Source: Acidobacteriota bacterium (GTDB lineage: Bacteria > Acidobacteriota > Terriglobia > Terriglobales > Acidobacteriaceae). Taken from it: 35,030 nucleotides of DNA. The stretch's first letter is position 1, and each line of letters begins with the position of its first letter. The position numbers were made by a program, and so were the translations under genes. The stretch is taken from NCBI GenBank assembly GCA_021800255.1, contig JAJYZC010000041.1, forward strand, positions 1 to 35,030. The letters are read 5' to 3'. Below the pieces are notes generated by a model. It had not been told where the DNA came from. It was given only the letters and a program-made list of their open reading frames with translations, and ran no database searches. Shown piece by piece: positions 14,400 to 20,870 of this stretch.

Positions 14400-17300
14400 T
14401 TAGTGTACTGCCTCGCTCAGCACCTCGGCATTCTTGCTCATCTTGGCTGTCCGCTCGAGCTTGTTCCAGTCGAAGGGCTGTCCGTCGATGGCGCGTTTGA
14501 GGGTCTTAGCGAGCACTAGAGAGAAGACCTGCCGGTAGGCGAAGCGTTGCAGCCAGATGTGAAAGAGCAGCCAGGCATCGCCTTTGTTGGCTGGATGCCG
14601 GCGTTCCAGGCTGAATGCCACCGCGGAAGTAACGAAGTCAATGAGCAGGAAGGCGAGGAAGTAAGCGACCAGCTTCTCCAGGCTGGTTGCCGAAGCCGCT
14701 TCGGGGTGGTAATAGCGGTCGATGAAGTAATTTCCCACCCCAGCCGCAAACATCACATCGATGAAGGGCGAGACCAGGGGCAGGATCATCTGAAAGATCA
14801 CGATGTTGGGCAGGGCGAAGAGTCCCATGGCCTTGTTGCGGGCGAAGGCGGCGCGATGCTTCCAAACCGCCTGTAGGGTGCCGAAGGACCAGCGAAAGCG
14901 CTGGCTCATCAGGCTCTTCATGCTGGCCGGGGCTTCGGTGAAGGCCAGGGCGCGGTCCTCGTAATCGACCTTGAGCTGCATCTCCAGCAGATGCATGGTG
15001 AGGTCGGCGTCTTCCGCCACGGTGTTCAGAGGATAGCCTCCGGCGGCCTTCACGGCGGCGGTGCGCCACGCGCCAATGGCTCCCGGAACCACGGTGACCA
15101 CGTGAAAAACGTCCAGCGCGCGGCGCTCGAAGTTCTGGCTGGTGATGTATTCCAGAGCCTGCCAGCGGGTCCACAGGTTCACCTTGTTGCCCACCTTGGC
15201 GTTGCCCGCCATGGCGCCGACGGTGGGGTCCTGAAAATGAGGAATGAGCTTGGAAATGGCGTCGGCAGCTATCGCGGTGTCGGCATCGATGCCCACATAA
15301 ATCTCTTCATCGATGTGTTCCAGACCGTAATTGAGGGCGGCGGCCTTGCCTTCGTTGTGCTTGCTCAGGATGCGGACACGGCCGGCAGCGATCTCCTCGG
15401 CAAAGGCCTCCCGCGCCACCTCGGCGGTGCGGTCAACTGATCCATCGTCCACCACGATGACGTGCAGATTCTTGTAGTCGGAGTTGAGCACGGAGCGGAT
15501 GGTGCGGACGATCACGGCCTCTTCGTTGTAAGCGGGGATGAGAACCGCTACGCGCGGATTGTAATCCGGCGAGGCGCGGCGAATGGGCTTGCGCAGCCGG
15601 TCGAAGACGGCCAGAACGCCGATGAAAAGAAACCGCACGCTCATCAGCACGTCGCCCACAAAAAAGACCAGCACGATGAACTTGGCGATGATGGCCGCGC
15701 TGGAAAAGGCGATGGAATCGGGAATGGTGCGCACCCATTGGCCGAAGCTGAGCTTGGGCATCACCTCCGCCCTGGTCTTGCCCATGAGCGCGGAGACCTG
15801 AACGAATTTGTAACCGCGGGCGCGCAGCCCATCGATGAGCACCGGCAGCGCGGCCACGGTGGCCGAGCGATCGCCGCCGCCATCGTGCAGCAGGATGATC
15901 GAGCCGCTAAACTGCGGCTTGGTCTTCATGGCGCGCAATTGCGCCAGCACGGAATCCAGAATCTCCTGCGGCGATTTGCGGGGATGCTCGTTCCAGTCGT
16001 TGGTGTCGATCTTGTTGCCGATGATGGTGAATCCATCGCGCTGAATGCGCACCACCGGCGCGGCTTCATCGTCCGTATCCGGCTCTTCATCGATGTCGTA
16101 TGGGGGGCGGAAGAAAAGCGGCTGCACGCCCAGTTTGGACTCGAAAAGCCGCTCCGTGAGATCGACCTCCAAGTCCAGTTGGCTCCGCGCGATCTCGCTG
16201 ATGTCGGGATGGGTGTAGGTGTGGTTTCCTATCTCATTGCCGTCGCGGTAAACACGCTGCATCAGCCCCACGTTCTCGGCCGCCTCGTCGCCGATCTCAA
16301 AAAAAGTCGCGTGTACGTGCTTTGCTTTCAAGATGTCGAGAATCTTGGGAGTCCAGCGGGGATCGGGTCCGTCATCGAAGGAGATCGCCACCTCCTTCAG
16401 CTTGGGATGGTAGCCGTACTGCTGAATGAGGTAAGGCTGCGGATAAACGACCATGTGCTCATCGACGATCAGTTGATCGCTGGGGCTGGGGTCGTCGGTG
16501 TCGACGGTGACGATGCGCCTGCCGGGATGAGGCAGCCCGACCACGCGCAGGATGTCGCCTTCCCCCTGCGTGTTCACGTCGTGGCCGGGCAGCACCACGC
16601 TGAGCTGTTGCGGAGCCTGGGGCGCGTTGGGCCGGTCCCACACGTTCCAGAGCGATCTGTCCTCTTCGCCCAGGCGCCACAGAGCGAAGGTCTCCAGGCC
16701 CATGGCGCGGGCGGCGCGCATCTCATTCAAAAGCGTCACCGCATCGAGAAACCACACTACGTGGTGCTCATGGGCGTCTTCGTCGATGTACTCGAAGTGG
16801 GGATTGAGAGAGTCAAAATCGAGGTCCACGTCGGCCCCCACGTCTGCGGCCTCCTGCCAGGCGTCGGAAACCGAGAGGTCTTCGGTGTTCAGCACCTGGG
16901 GCTCGAAATGCCAGCGGTTCTTGCGATTGGGCATGGACATAGCCCAGTCATAGCCGTAGTTGGCCATGGCGCAGATCAGCTTCTGCTTAGGCACCGATTT
17001 GAGCACCCGGCGCAGATTGGCGGCGAACCAATCCTGGCTGGCGATGGGGCCCGGACCGCTGTCGATCTCATGCTGATCGTAGTTCATCAAAATTATGCCG
17101 TCGGAGTTGGCGGCGATCGTTTTCAAATCGCTGGCGCTGGTGGAGGCGTCCACGTTGACATAAAGCCGCAGATTGCGCGGATGCATCTGGGCGTAGAGCG
17201 CCTGGATGAAGCTCAAGTAAGCCGGATCCGCGTCGCCGGGCAGGCTTTCGAAATCCAGCGACAGCCCGTGATAGACCGGGTAGGCCAGTAAAAAACGCAT

Positions 17301-17936
17301 CAGTTGATCGCGTAGCGCGGCGCTCATGTCCGGATTCTGAAGGACGGCGCCGACGCCTGTGTCCCAACTCTGGGTATGGGGGTTGAAATTGTTCACGAGG
17401 GGAAAGATCTCGGTGTCCACCTGCGCCGCCTGAATCACGTTCTTCACTTTGTTCAGGTAGTCGGGATCGTGTACCGTATTGCCCTGGATCACCTGATACT
17501 CGTGGAGATTGTCCCCGGTCATCGCCATCAGCGTGCCATTGGGCGAATCCACGTGCAGCCATTGCGGAAACAGCATATCGAGGTGGTGAATGTATTCCTT
17601 CAGCGAGGAGTAGCTGCCCGCGTCGTCCGGCACGTAATAGGCGGCGCGCAAACCCTCGCCGGAGTTGAGGGGAATTTCAGAGGGCTTGCGGGTGGTCGTG
17701 CGGTGCCTGAAGGAACGCCTGCCTCGAATGCGCAGCAACGGCGACCGGTCCGGCAAGGCTTTGTAATTATGCTTGGGAGCGGGCAGCAGCAATTGGGGCA
17801 AGTGCTGATGGTGCAGCACGTTGATGATGAACCCGGCCAGGATCAGCGTAGAGAGTACGGCCGCGATGTCGAAGATGCGGCGCAGCCGCCTCCACCGCTT
17901 GCGCTGCGGATCGTAGAAGATCTGTCTATCCTGCAT
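14400..17936 (-). CDS. Trifunctional GH18-like / NodB deacetylase / GT2 synthase
   Basis: 1178 residues from the ATG at 17936. A cytoplasmic tail and one membrane helix (about 22-43) precede a GH18-like domain (about 90-440). Its catalytic strand reads HGLSLDFE at about 223-230, keeping D and E but not the first D of DGxxxDxE. A complete CE4 NodB domain follows (about 510-720): SFDDGPD (519-525), NHTYTHP (571-577), RPPYD (610-614) and LLHDG (682-686). After one or two helices comes a processive GT2 domain (about 795-1040) with VDDGS, DAD, ED and QRFRW (1012-1016), then several C-terminal helices. The order puts synthesis in the cytoplasm and deacetylation/hydrolysis in the periplasm, as if PgaC and PgaB of poly-GlcNAc synthesis were one chain. 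The polymer is not known. Confidence 0.93.
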   Translation of the reverse strand: MQDRQIFYDPQRKRWRRLRRIFDIAAVLSTLILAGFIINVLHHQHLPQLLLPAPKHNYKALPDRSPLLRIRGRRSFRHRTTTRKPSEIPLNSGEGLRAAYYVPDDAGSYSSLKEYIHHLDMLFPQWLHVDSPNGTLMAMTGDNLHEYQVIQGNTVHDPDYLNKVKNVIQAAQVDTEIFPLVNNFNPHTQSWDTGVGAVLQNPDMSAALRDQLMRFLLAYPVYHGLSLDFESLPGDADPAYLSFIQALYAQMHPRNLRLYVNVDASTSASDLKTIAANSDGIILMNYDQHEIDSGPGPIASQDWFAANLRRVLKSVPKQKLICAMANYGYDWAMSMPNRKNRWHFEPQVLNTEDLSVSDAWQEAADVGADVDLDFDSLNPHFEYIDEDAHEHHVVWFLDAVTLLNEMRAARAMGLETFALWRLGEEDRSLWNVWDRPNAPQAPQQLSVVLPGHDVNTQGEGDILRVVGLPHPGRRIVTVDTDDPSPSDQLIVDEHMVVYPQPYLIQQYGYHPKLKEVAISFDDGPDPRWTPKILDILKAKHVHATFFEIGDEAAENVGLMQRVYRDGNEIGNHTYTHPDISEIARSQLDLEVDLTERLFESKLGVQPLFFRPPYDIDEEPDTDDEAAPVVRIQRDGFTIIGNKIDTNDWNEHPRKSPQEILDSVLAQLRAMKTKPQFSGSIILLHDGGGDRSATVAALPVLIDGLRARGYKFVQVSALMGKTRAEVMPKLSFGQWVRTIPDSIAFSSAAIIAKFIVLVFFVGDVLMSVRFLFIGVLAVFDRLRKPIRRASPDYNPRVAVLIPAYNEEAVIVRTIRSVLNSDYKNLHVIVVDDGSVDRTAEVAREAFAEEIAAGRVRILSKHNEGKAAALNYGLEHIDEEIYVGIDADTAIAADAISKLIPHFQDPTVGAMAGNAKVGNKVNLWTRWQALEYITSQNFERRALDVFHVVTVVPGAIGAWRTAAVKAAGGYPLNTVAEDADLTMHLLEMQLKVDYEDRALAFTEAPASMKSLMSQRFRWSFGTLQAVWKHRAAFARNKAMGLFALPNIVIFQMILPLVSPFIDVMFAAGVGNYFIDRYYHPEAASATSLEKLVAYFLAFLLIDFVTSAVAFSLERRHPANKGDAWLLFHIWLQRFAYRQVFSLVLAKTLKRAIDGQPFDWNKLERTAKMSKNAEVLSEAVH

Positions 17937-18141
17937 GGCCGGTCTCATTTGCTGCACGTTCGCCCAGCTCACCCTGAGCGCGGCCTTCCCGCTCCCTGTG
18001 AGGCTTCAACTCCCCCTGCCGAGGCAACAAAACGAAACGCAAGGCCGGTAAACCGGCCCAAAAGAACCTTGCTTGACCTTCACGGTACATCAAACGCCAC
18101 TTCCTGAACGGTGCAGCACGGACGCGGAAACGGACTACAGT

Positions 18142-19677
18142 ATGAATCGTATGGAAGCTACCCCGGGGAGTCAATCGACTGTTTTGCGCCGGATGATGGC
18201 CAAGGCCGCCCCAGCGGCACTGCTGGCGGCGCCGCTGGCCGTTGCCCTGGCGTTGCGCCTGTGGATGCTCGAAAGCTTATTTCAGCCCAATGGCGATACG
18301 CTGGTCTACGGGGACCTGGCAAAAAATCTCCTCCTTCACCGACGCTACGCGCTCACATCTCCAAGCGGCGATATTTATTCGACGCTGATCCGCCTCCCCG
18401 GGTATCCGCTGTTCCTGGCCGCCTGTTTCCGGCTCTTTGGCATGGAGAATTATTTTGCCGCGGCTTGCGTGCAGATCGTGCTGGACTTAGCAGCCTGTCT
18501 TCTGACAGCCGATTTCGCCCGCCGCATCGCTCCGCCGGCCTGGAAACAAAGCGCCCTGCGGGCCACGCTCTGGCTGGCTGCGCTGTGCCCTTTCACGGCC
18601 TCTTATACGGCAGATCCGCTGGCCGAAATGCCGACGGTCTTTCTGCTGGCGCTGGCGCTGTGGGCGCTGGCGCGGTTCCACGGCGCGCCAGAGTCAGCGG
18701 CGGCCGGTTCCGGACGCAGAAACGGTCAAGCGGCGATTTCATTGAGGGGGCTTCTCCGTTGGGCTGAGGGACCGACCTGGGGCAACGCTCTCTGCTTTAC
18801 CTTCGCCGTAACCGGAGCCGCGCTGCTCCGCCCGGAGGGCGCGCTCGCCGCCGTAGCCCTGGCGCCGGCCATGGTCTTCGGCTGGCCGGGCGGCCACGAC
18901 GCCGGGATCATCCCGCGGCGAAAACTGCTGCGCATGACGCTGGTGTGCGTTCTGCTGGCGCTGGCGCCCTTTGCCGCGTGGGCATGGCGGAACTGGCGGG
19001 TCTTCCACGTCTTCCAACCCTTGGCGCCGCGTTTGGCCATGGACGGAAACGAGAACCGCATGGAAGGGTGGGAGCGATGGGTGAAGACCTGGTGCCTGGA
19101 CTTCATTTCCACCGAGGAAATCTATTGGAACGTTCCCGACGGCGAGTTGGACGTGAGCAATCTGCCTGCCCGCGCCTTCGACTCGCACGCCCAGTACGAA
19201 GCAACGGTCGCGCTGGCTCGCAAATACGAGCGCGACGACGAGCACATTACGCCCGCTATCGACGCGGGCTTTGAGCGGCTGGCCGAGCAGCGCATCGCCG
19301 CGCACCCCTGGCGCGATGATCTCTGGCTGCCCTTGGGGCGCTTAGCCGATATGTGGCTGCGCCCGCGGCTGGACAACCTGAACAACGATCAGGACTGGTG
19401 GGCATATGCTCTCCATCCCGGTGAGACGCTTTTCGATTGGGCCTATGCCGGCCTCAATGCGCTCTATTTGCTTCTGGGGCTCGCGGGCCTGTGGCTGCGC
19501 CCACGCTTCTGGACCGCGATGCTCGCTTATATGCTGCTGCGCAGCGCTTTGCTTTTGACCCTCGCAGCCCCCGAAACCCGTTACACGCTGGAGTGCTTCC
19601 CTATGCTGTTCGCTCTGGGGGGAATCGCCATGGCCGCGGGGATCGCAAGGCTGCGGCGGCGCGGGATTGAGGGCTGA
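18142..19677 (+). CDS. GT39/ArnT-like membrane glycosyltransferase (GT-C fold)
   Basis: 511 residues. The first helix (about 22-45) is followed by FQPNGDTLVYGDLAKNLLLH, whose aspartates match the catalytic extracytoplasmic loop of GT-C enzymes. Y-S-x-x-x-R-x-P-G-Y-P-L-F (in STLIRLPGYPLFLA) is another family pattern. About nine further hydrophobic segments follow, with a soluble insert around residues 290-420 and a C-terminal helix group ending in ETRYTLECFPMLFALGG, where R-Y is typical. Such enzymes use polyprenyl-phosphate sugars to modify proteins or lipids on the periplasmic face. It is divergent from the fused glycan gene, which may mean a shared role in surface sugars. The start at 18142 is chosen over 18073 because the helix then begins at a normal distance; 18151 is possible. 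Confidence 0.8.
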   Translation: MNRMEATPGSQSTVLRRMMAKAAPAALLAAPLAVALALRLWMLESLFQPNGDTLVYGDLAKNLLLHRRYALTSPSGDIYSTLIRLPGYPLFLAACFRLFGMENYFAAACVQIVLDLAACLLTADFARRIAPPAWKQSALRATLWLAALCPFTASYTADPLAEMPTVFLLALALWALARFHGAPESAAAGSGRRNGQAAISLRGLLRWAEGPTWGNALCFTFAVTGAALLRPEGALAAVALAPAMVFGWPGGHDAGIIPRRKLLRMTLVCVLLALAPFAAWAWRNWRVFHVFQPLAPRLAMDGNENRMEGWERWVKTWCLDFISTEEIYWNVPDGELDVSNLPARAFDSHAQYEATVALARKYERDDEHITPAIDAGFERLAEQRIAAHPWRDDLWLPLGRLADMWLRPRLDNLNNDQDWWAYALHPGETLFDWAYAGLNALYLLLGLAGLWLRPRFWTAMLAYMLLRSALLLTLAAPETRYTLECFPMLFALGGIAMAAGIARLRRRGIEG

Positions 19678-19684
19678 GGATCAG

Positions 19685-20383
19685 TTAGTGGTTCAAGTAC
19701 GTGGTGTGGCTGCCGGTTTTGAAGGTAAAGGCATTGCCGGGTAGGGATCGGTTGATCCGGATATTCGTATATGTCGCCGTGCGGGTTTGGCCTTGCCCTT
19801 CGTCGAAGACCTGCTTCACGCTCACCCCGGTGTCCAGGTCGATCCACATGGTGACTTCAGGAAGATTTTTTCGGATGGCAGGGTCTTTGGGAACCATCTC
19901 CAGTTTTTCGGTCTTTCCGCCATTCAGCATCTCCGCCCCGTCGTCTTGGATGTTCCACTTTTCTGCGAGCTCTTGGCCGCTGGCGCCAAAGCCGAGCATG
20001 AACCAGCTTTTGTAGCGGCTGAACTTGCTCAGCCTGGTCACCTGGTCGATCAGCTTTTGATACAACTCAATGACGCCGTTCCGGCAGCAAACGATCACCT
20101 CGGGTGCGCGCTGGCCGTTGACCCGCTCGATGTGTATGCCCATTTGAAAGCCTGAGCCATTGCGCCGGTAGTAGACCTCGCCCGTTTGCACCTCGGTGTC
20201 CGGAACCGGCTCGGTTTGTACGTTCTTGTACACGAAATCGGCCGAGGCAGTATGGAAGCGGGCGGCGGCAGCGTCAAGCCGCTGCAGCACGGCCTTCAAA
20301 TCTCCGGCCGCGAAGGCCGGCTGCACCGGAATCGAGCCCAGCGCGATGGATACAGCCAAGACTAGCTTTCTTCCCAATGGCAT
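19685..20383 (-). CDS. LolA-like outer-membrane lipoprotein carrier
   Basis: 232 residues from the ATG at 20383, preceded by AGGAAGGGG. The signal peptide MPLGRKLVLAVSIALG.. is cleaved near AFA-AGD. The mature protein begins with DLKAVLQRLDAAAARFHTAS, the usual LolA helix, and continues as an open beta-barrel-like half-shell. TGEVYYRRNGSGFQMGIHIE and later PEVTMWIDLDTGVSVKQVFD are LolA/DUF-type strands. LolA proteins carry lipoproteins across the periplasm. Acidobacterial members of this type are often annotated only as 'outer membrane lipoprotein carrier family', and they may carry other lipids. It lies 52 bases after the single-TM protein gene and probably belongs to the serS operon. It converges with the GT39-like gene, with only 7 bases between the stops. 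Confidence 0.82.
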   Translation of the reverse strand: MPLGRKLVLAVSIALGSIPVQPAFAAGDLKAVLQRLDAAAARFHTASADFVYKNVQTEPVPDTEVQTGEVYYRRNGSGFQMGIHIERVNGQRAPEVIVCCRNGVIELYQKLIDQVTRLSKFSRYKSWFMLGFGASGQELAEKWNIQDDGAEMLNGGKTEKLEMVPKDPAIRKNLPEVTMWIDLDTGVSVKQVFDEGQGQTRTATYTNIRINRSLPGNAFTFKTGSHTTYLNH

Positions 20384-20435
20384 CAAGCCCCTTCCTGTTT
20401 TTGACGCGCATTTGAACCGGACGGCGAAAAATCTT

Positions 20436-20870
20436 TTAGCGGTGCGCCCAAATCTTCCAGGAAAGATTTCCGTGGGCATCAGTCACCGTCTCCCATCGCT
20501 CCACGTAAATTGCGCCGCCGGTGACCGGCTCGATGGCTTCGCGCAGCGCCTCCTTCACTTGCCCTTCTGTAGCGCCTGAGTGAACCTTTACATCCACCGC
20601 CGGCACGGTAATGACCATCCCGTGGAGGCCGTCGCCGGCAATTTGAATCGGGTGCTTGAGGCTGGCGATCGAGGACGGCTGGGCGCCGTAGTCCCACAGG
20701 TGCGGCGTGACGAAGATGAACAGCAGGATCAGCGTCACCATCACGTCATACGGGAAGCTGCCGCGCGAATACGTCCAGAAGAAATAGCTCTTCAGGACCT
20801 GCCCTATGCCCCGCTTGGGCTGCGCCGCCCGATCGGTTGCGCTCAACGGTTCACTTACGGGTTCACTCAC
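20436..20870 (-). CDS. Single-pass membrane protein of unknown function, coupled to serS
   Basis: 144 residues. The GTG start at 20870 overlaps the serS stop (GTGA), which is the classic form of translational coupling; AGGGAG lies just upstream. The N-terminal 35 residues are polar and cytoplasmic, with a duplicated SEPVSEP. One helix follows at about 44-58 ([17 protein letters not shown]), then a periplasmic domain of about 85 residues ([20 protein letters not shown] onward, ending WKIWAHR). The layout of a short tail, one helix and a small alpha/beta domain recalls ExbD/TolR, but the conserved ExbD aspartate in the helix is not seen, so I do not assign it. Its place between serS and a LolA-like gene suggests an envelope role. 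Confidence 0.75.

Follow-up and report, generated by a model that had tools for sequence, protein, structure and literature searches.

Which glycan would be made by a single membrane protein that carries a synthase, a deacetylase and a glycoside hydrolase, and does such a protein act alone? The question is raised by a gene on the reverse strand of the window (the whole 35,030-nucleotide stretch of acidobacterial DNA that was analysed). A preliminary description had claimed a GT2 glycosyltransferase with a QRFRW motif, a CE4 deacetylase and a GH18-like domain in one chain, which was borne out by ORF calling, Pfam, active site residues and orthologues. The enclosing ORF spans 14400-17972(-), with an alternative GTG start at 17972, and translation from the ATG at 17936 yields 1178 aa. 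Since the alignments of relatives begin at residues 1-5 of the 1178-aa chain, matching the ATG start, the gene limits previously proposed are correct. Pfam placed the domains in the order GH18, CE4, GT2 from the N to the C terminus. The features of the chain are as follows (evidence in brackets):

14400..17936, reverse strand: trimodular GH18-CE4-GT2 membrane protein, 1178 aa (ORF calling, Pfam, orthologues)
17811..17867, reverse strand: N-terminal transmembrane helix, residues 24-42, after a Lys/Arg-rich, probably cytoplasmic end (hydropathy)
16497..17684, reverse strand: GH18 module of the SleL/YdhD type, residues 85-480 (PF00704, PDB sequence matches, Foldseek, residues)
15732..16466, reverse strand: CE4/NodB deacetylase module, residues ~491-735, with five canonical motifs (PF01522, motifs)
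15594..15713, reverse strand: hydrophobic stretch, residues 742-781, one or two transmembrane helices (hydropathy peaks at 742-760 and 763-781)
14403..15629, reverse strand: GT2 processive-type synthase with C-terminal transmembrane helices, residues 770-1178 (PF13641/PF00535, residues, tree and AU tests)

The hydropathy profile ran from the Lys/Arg-rich end through the N-terminal helix, a loop of ~700 aa containing GH18 and CE4, the hydrophobic stretch and GT2 to the C-terminal helices, with the stretch at 742-781 separating the predicted periplasmic from the predicted cytoplasmic half. The simplest topology predicted from it would have GH18 and CE4 on the periplasmic and GT2 on the cytoplasmic side, in agreement with the periplasmic location claimed earlier for the deacetylase. 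The AlphaFold model of the whole 1178-aa chain was unusable (pLDDT 44).

All 26 sampled Acidobacteriaceae genomes contained the fused gene, full-length or nearly so and with one match per genome, as did 18 of 221 other Acidobacteriota genomes (~37-46% identity); one further match outside the Acidobacteriaceae (G067) comprised GT2 only. Near whole-chain homologues, usually annotated just as 'glycosyltransferase', were found on replicons of sphingomonads (Novosphingobium, Sphingobium, Sphingomonas), Rhodobacterales (Sulfitobacter, Limimaricola), Deinococcus and Prevotella. The GH18-CE4-GT2 chain is a widespread family and not unique to the window. Because dozens of full-length orthologues conserve it across several phyla, a chance fusion, an assembly chimera or an artefact of the window is ruled out. 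Nothing specific to this exact combination of three domains came out of literature searches, and no paper was found that assigns a product to this architecture, which every sampled Acidobacteriaceae genome encodes.

The CE4 module matched PF01522 (2.6e-27) over residues 512-613, its motifs continuing to ~720. All CE4 motifs are present, as had been claimed, and the window chain carries D521/D522, H572/H576, R610, D647 and H684; the catalytic Asp, the metal triad and the other motif residues were identical in 45 of 45 full-length relatives. High scores with the PdaB and NodB models identified the module as canonical NodB/PdaB type.

The GH18 module matched PF00704 above the cut-off (2.7e-10, residues 197-424). 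Its catalytic D228xE230 is encoded at 17247-17255, and the MxYD motif corresponds to Y286/D287. The module lacks the two leading Asp of the textbook DxxDxDxE motif. They are, however, absent too in the nearest solved relatives found by PDB sequence matches (Chromobacterium chitinase 5JH8, YdhD 3CZ8, and 4Q6T); the reduced motif is therefore a subfamily trait, and its GxxxDFE form is common to the window GH18 and related spore cortex-lytic or chitinase-type proteins. A model of the GH18 domain (pLDDT 62, moderate confidence) had SleL and class V chitinases as best Foldseek matches, the top matches all being of GH18 type. Among the 45 full-length relatives, the Asp of DxE was kept in 45 and the Glu in 43, and with the same reduced motif in the nearest solved relatives, a dead GH18 is unlikely. 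The two exceptions are independent losses of the catalytic Glu, both in three-domain proteins that are otherwise full-length: one Acidobacteriaceae copy (L041, genome G121) has Gln instead, and in the Sulfitobacter copy (L058) the motif is gone. Judged by these residues, hydrolysis by GH18 is the least constrained of the three predicted activities, because its catalytic Glu was kept in 43/45 relatives versus 45/45 for the CE4 and GT2 residues.

The GT2 module matched PF13641 (4.5e-32, residues 794-1019) and also PF00535. It contains D830, D884xD886, D976 and QRFRW at 1012-1016 (Q1012xxR1015W1016), and these Asp residues and QxxRW were identical in 45/45 full-length relatives. The best equivalog model was PgaC_IcaA (TIGR03937) with 177 bits, compared with 97 for NodC and 67 for CelA, which together with the residues upholds the earlier notion of a processive, PgaC-like GT2. 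The 177 bits do not reach the TIGR03937 cut-off of 422 bits, and because of this gap poly-N-acetylglucosamine (PNAG) as product is a lead and not a result. The likening to PgaC also needs to be qualified, for by GT2 BLAST there are CE4-GT2 fusions that come closer than PgaC. Outside the three-domain proteins, the highest scores were to relatives whose GT2 is solo or fused to CE4, from Deinococcus (230 bits), Streptomyces (MatB-like, 229), Kocuria (216) and Halorubrum (196), with lower scores to PgaC (130-139), IcaA (124), NodC (96-98) and E. coli BcsA (46). Hyaluronan synthase and chitin synthase from the PDB, compared by score alone and outside the tree, gave 51 and 23 bits. In the maximum-likelihood tree, the GT2 domains of the three-domain proteins formed one group (support 87/93). 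Their grouping with the MatB-like fusions, which is absent from the best tree, was not rejected by the AU test (p-AU 0.454); that with PgaC/IcaA gave 0.169 when MatB was included and was borderline without it (0.055). According to the preliminary description, a grouping with cellulose, hyaluronan or chitin synthases would have spoken against it; the AU test rejected a grouping with NodC (p-AU 0.02) and with a cellulose-type synthase, the genome's own BcsA-like GT2 (p-AU 0.006).

The E. coli pga system (PgaB and PgaC with PgaA and PgaD) resembles the window chain in combining a GT2 synthase, a periplasmic deacetylase and a periplasmic hydrolase. It differs in that PgaB has CE4 before the hydrolase, whereas the hydrolase comes first in the window chain; in that the hydrolase domain of PgaB belongs to GH153 (PMC5933820) and that of the window chain to GH18; and in that, in the tree, the window-type GT2 forms a clade separate from PgaC. 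E. coli PgaB was retrieved neither with the window CE4 (even at E 0.01) nor with the GH18 as BLAST query, and the PgaB model (TIGR03938) was absent from the families listed for the chain and had no match in the whole genome. Homology of the periplasmic half to PgaB was thus rejected by both BLAST and HMM. Of the earlier claim that PgaC and PgaB activities are united here, the similarity in activity stood, but the periplasmic domains differ in kind from the PgaB ones (canonical CE4, SleL/YdhD-like GH18, reversed order): the chain is PgaBC-like by predicted activity, not by descent of its periplasmic half. The reported lack of a PgaA-like porin and of PgaD in the window was confirmed, PgaB likewise not being seen there, and it extends to the genome, where none exceeded its cut-off: PgaD had no match and PgaA TPR-repeat matches only (≤35 bits versus a cut-off of 367), a search that a divergent porin could have escaped.

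The region upstream of the chain bears on whether it acts alone, and contains:

17937..18141, no strand: short divergent intergenic region between the fused gene and the GT-C gene (sequence; divergence in 26/28 loci)
18142..19677, forward strand: GT-C (PMT_2-like) polytopic glycosyltransferase, divergent partner gene (orthologue PF13231, adjacency, co-occurrence)

The ORF of the partner opens at TTG 18073, with ATG 18142 in frame. Pfam gave no match on the window copy itself; three of six orthologues tested exceeded the PF13231 (PMT_2) cut-off, and the product of 18142-19677(+) is therefore GT-C-like. The gene was adjacent and divergent to the fused gene in 26 of the 28 neighbourhood loci holding both; in the remaining two, from another acidobacterial family, both genes share a strand and GT-C is the downstream one. 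Of 247 Acidobacteriota genomes searched with a profile, 33 had GT-C, and all of these (33/33) carry the fused gene. Outside the Acidobacteriaceae, this held for 8/8 GT-C genomes versus a base rate of 18/221 (hypergeometric 3.5e-10, uncorrected for shared ancestry), and in five of the eight the two genes were on different contigs. Eleven fused-gene genomes, including one of the Acidobacteriaceae (G202), had no GT-C match. Since every GT-C genome has the fused gene, yet not vice versa, the dependence is one-way, with GT-C as an apparent accessory that relies on the fused gene. A single-gene system, as initially proposed, has become doubtful with a gene that was found only together with the fused one; the GT-C partner and the non-PgaB periplasmic half are additions to the preliminary description. 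The partner also offers a way to learn what the glycan is further joined to. Beyond it, at window 19685-20479(-), lies a gene with a weak NCBIfam match to LolA-like outer-membrane lipoprotein chaperones, which is syntenic with the locus in Acidobacteriaceae and adjoins SerRS.

The nearest characterised relative of the chain, and among the closest by GT2 score, is MatB of Streptomyces (SCO2962/SLI_3306), a CE4-GT2 fusion needed for PNAG that is recognised by mAb F598 and sensitive to dispersin B (PMC5972031; PMC4391728). A Streptomyces MatB-like protein aligned over CE4 and GT2 (window-chain residues 511-1170) with 36.7% identity, and MatB shares the order CE4-TM-GT2 in one chain, the canonical CE4 and the PgaC-like GT2. 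Its product behaves as PNAG despite the canonical CE4, and the mutant keeps a β-1,4 glycan stain (PMC5972031). Unlike the window chain, MatB does not start with a GH18 module; it is paired with MatA, a membrane protein in which no domains are known, and an IcaC-like gene follows, whereas the window partner is GT-C, and the GT-C model matched none of the Streptomyces or Kocuria ORFs near MatB-like genes. The window organism, unlike the Streptomyces host, is diderm, so the product may have an outer membrane to pass. On a Kocuria rosea plasmid (L060:5902-9207), a CE4-GT2 fusion adjoins a convergent, separate GH18 'chitinase' gene, the three activities thus being unfused. Divergent pgaB clades with deacetylase-GT fusions that, as here, lack pgaA and pgaD were surveyed in 2020 (PMC7112194); the available part of that survey describes neither a GH18 module nor a GT-C partner, and function was untested there.

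With a probability of roughly 60%, we read the protein as an inner-membrane synthase, deacetylase and hydrolase in one chain, in function a MatB extended by a GH18, whose product is a GlcNAc-type glycan of the envelope or cell surface with β-1,6 (PNAG-like) or β-1,4 (chitosan-like) linkage; this product is probably partly deacetylated. The cytoplasmic GT2 with its transmembrane helices would add GlcNAc from UDP-GlcNAc processively and thread the chain to the periplasm, as suggested by QxxRW, the Asp residues and the kinship with MatB and PgaC. There, the tethered CE4, its canonical motifs being complete, would take off some N-acetyl groups and thereby introduce positive charge, and the tethered GH18 would cut or edit the emerging chain and set its length or release, a role that the GH153 domain has in PgaB. 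GT-C would probably either attach one more sugar in the periplasm, with a polyprenyl-phosphate donor as its source, or move the product to an acceptor. On this reading, the chain is a compact form of a logic that is spread over several genes in the Pga and Nod systems. Points against a GlcNAc glycan, and PNAG in particular, are the distance of GT2 from the PgaC equivalog cut-off and the lack of any identified porin for the outer membrane. The normal substrate of canonical CE4 and GH18 enzymes is β-1,4 GlcNAc, which does not match PNAG; the chain allows a direct test of whether such a pair can act on a β-1,6 polymer. The composition of bulk exopolysaccharide from two Granulicella strains (hexose, pentose, uronic acid and no acetate, determined with standards that lacked amino sugars; PMC5259719) also counts against a GlcNAc glycan.

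The same activities may have another product, namely a β-1,4 chitin- or chitosan-like polymer or oligomer made by the logic of NodC and NodB in one chain, with GH18 as a length-controlling chitinase. NodC and NodB share with the window chain the processive GT2 superfamily and the canonical CE4; they are, however, separate genes without GH18. The high PdaB and NodB model scores of CE4, and the resemblance of GH18 to SleL and class V chitinases, which cut β-1,4 GlcNAc bonds, are consistent with such a product, whereas the rejected NodC grouping, NodC scores well under those of PgaC/IcaA, and MatB, in which a canonical CE4 goes with a PNAG-like product, argue against it. We consider it the less probable outcome, at somewhat better than one chance in five.

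A short amino-glycolipid (GlcNAc-lipid, then GlcN-lipid) rather than a polymer, with GH18 editing or dead, would follow the logic of HexSDF of C. difficile, which comprises a glycosyltransferase, a deacetylase, an MprF-like flippase and a two-component system (PMC10128005). It is suggested by loci in three sphingomonad genera (L061:7794-16589, L067:6861-16634 and L055:1123-11309), in which the fused gene, with no GT-C nearby, is accompanied by an AcvB/VirJ lysyl-PG hydrolase, an MprF-type LPG synthase/flippase and a two-component system; the gene order differs between the three, and the grouping suggests a shared surface-charge regulon in these organisms. HexSDF, however, is unfused and without GH18, HexS is annotated as a monogalactosyldiacylglycerol synthase and not a QxxRW GT2, and it is hard to see what GH18 would do in a pathway to a monosaccharide lipid. 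Moreover, no match to the MprF domain (LPG_synthase_C) was found in the window's genome, so the link to MprF and AcvB was dropped for this organism, and an amino-glycolipid, improbable to begin with, is less likely here. That CE4 and GH18 remodel peptidoglycan strands while GT2 supplies an unrelated wall sugar is very improbable, for although CE4 is like peptidoglycan deacetylases and GH18 like cortex-lytic SleL, a processive-type GT2 in cis, invariant in 45/45 relatives, would be left unexplained, and the MatB precedent speaks against it.

Returning to the GlcNAc-type glycan, it is conceivable, though we would not bet on it, that Acidobacteriota have an undescribed pathway in which the fused chain synthesises a GlcN/GlcNAc glycan, deacetylates it and trims it, a dedicated GT-C decorates it or transfers it to an acceptor, and no Pga-type porin takes part; the surface of the Acidobacteriaceae would then have this cationic glycan as one of its core features. 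Elsewhere, a clade-related solo GT2 on a Deinococcus taeanensis plasmid (L066:3072-6102) belongs to a run of overlapping genes that also encodes a GH26-like hydrolase and a membrane protein of unknown family, and a DUF3131 protein is encoded directly downstream of the Sulfitobacter copy with the degenerate GH18 (L058:11564-13894).
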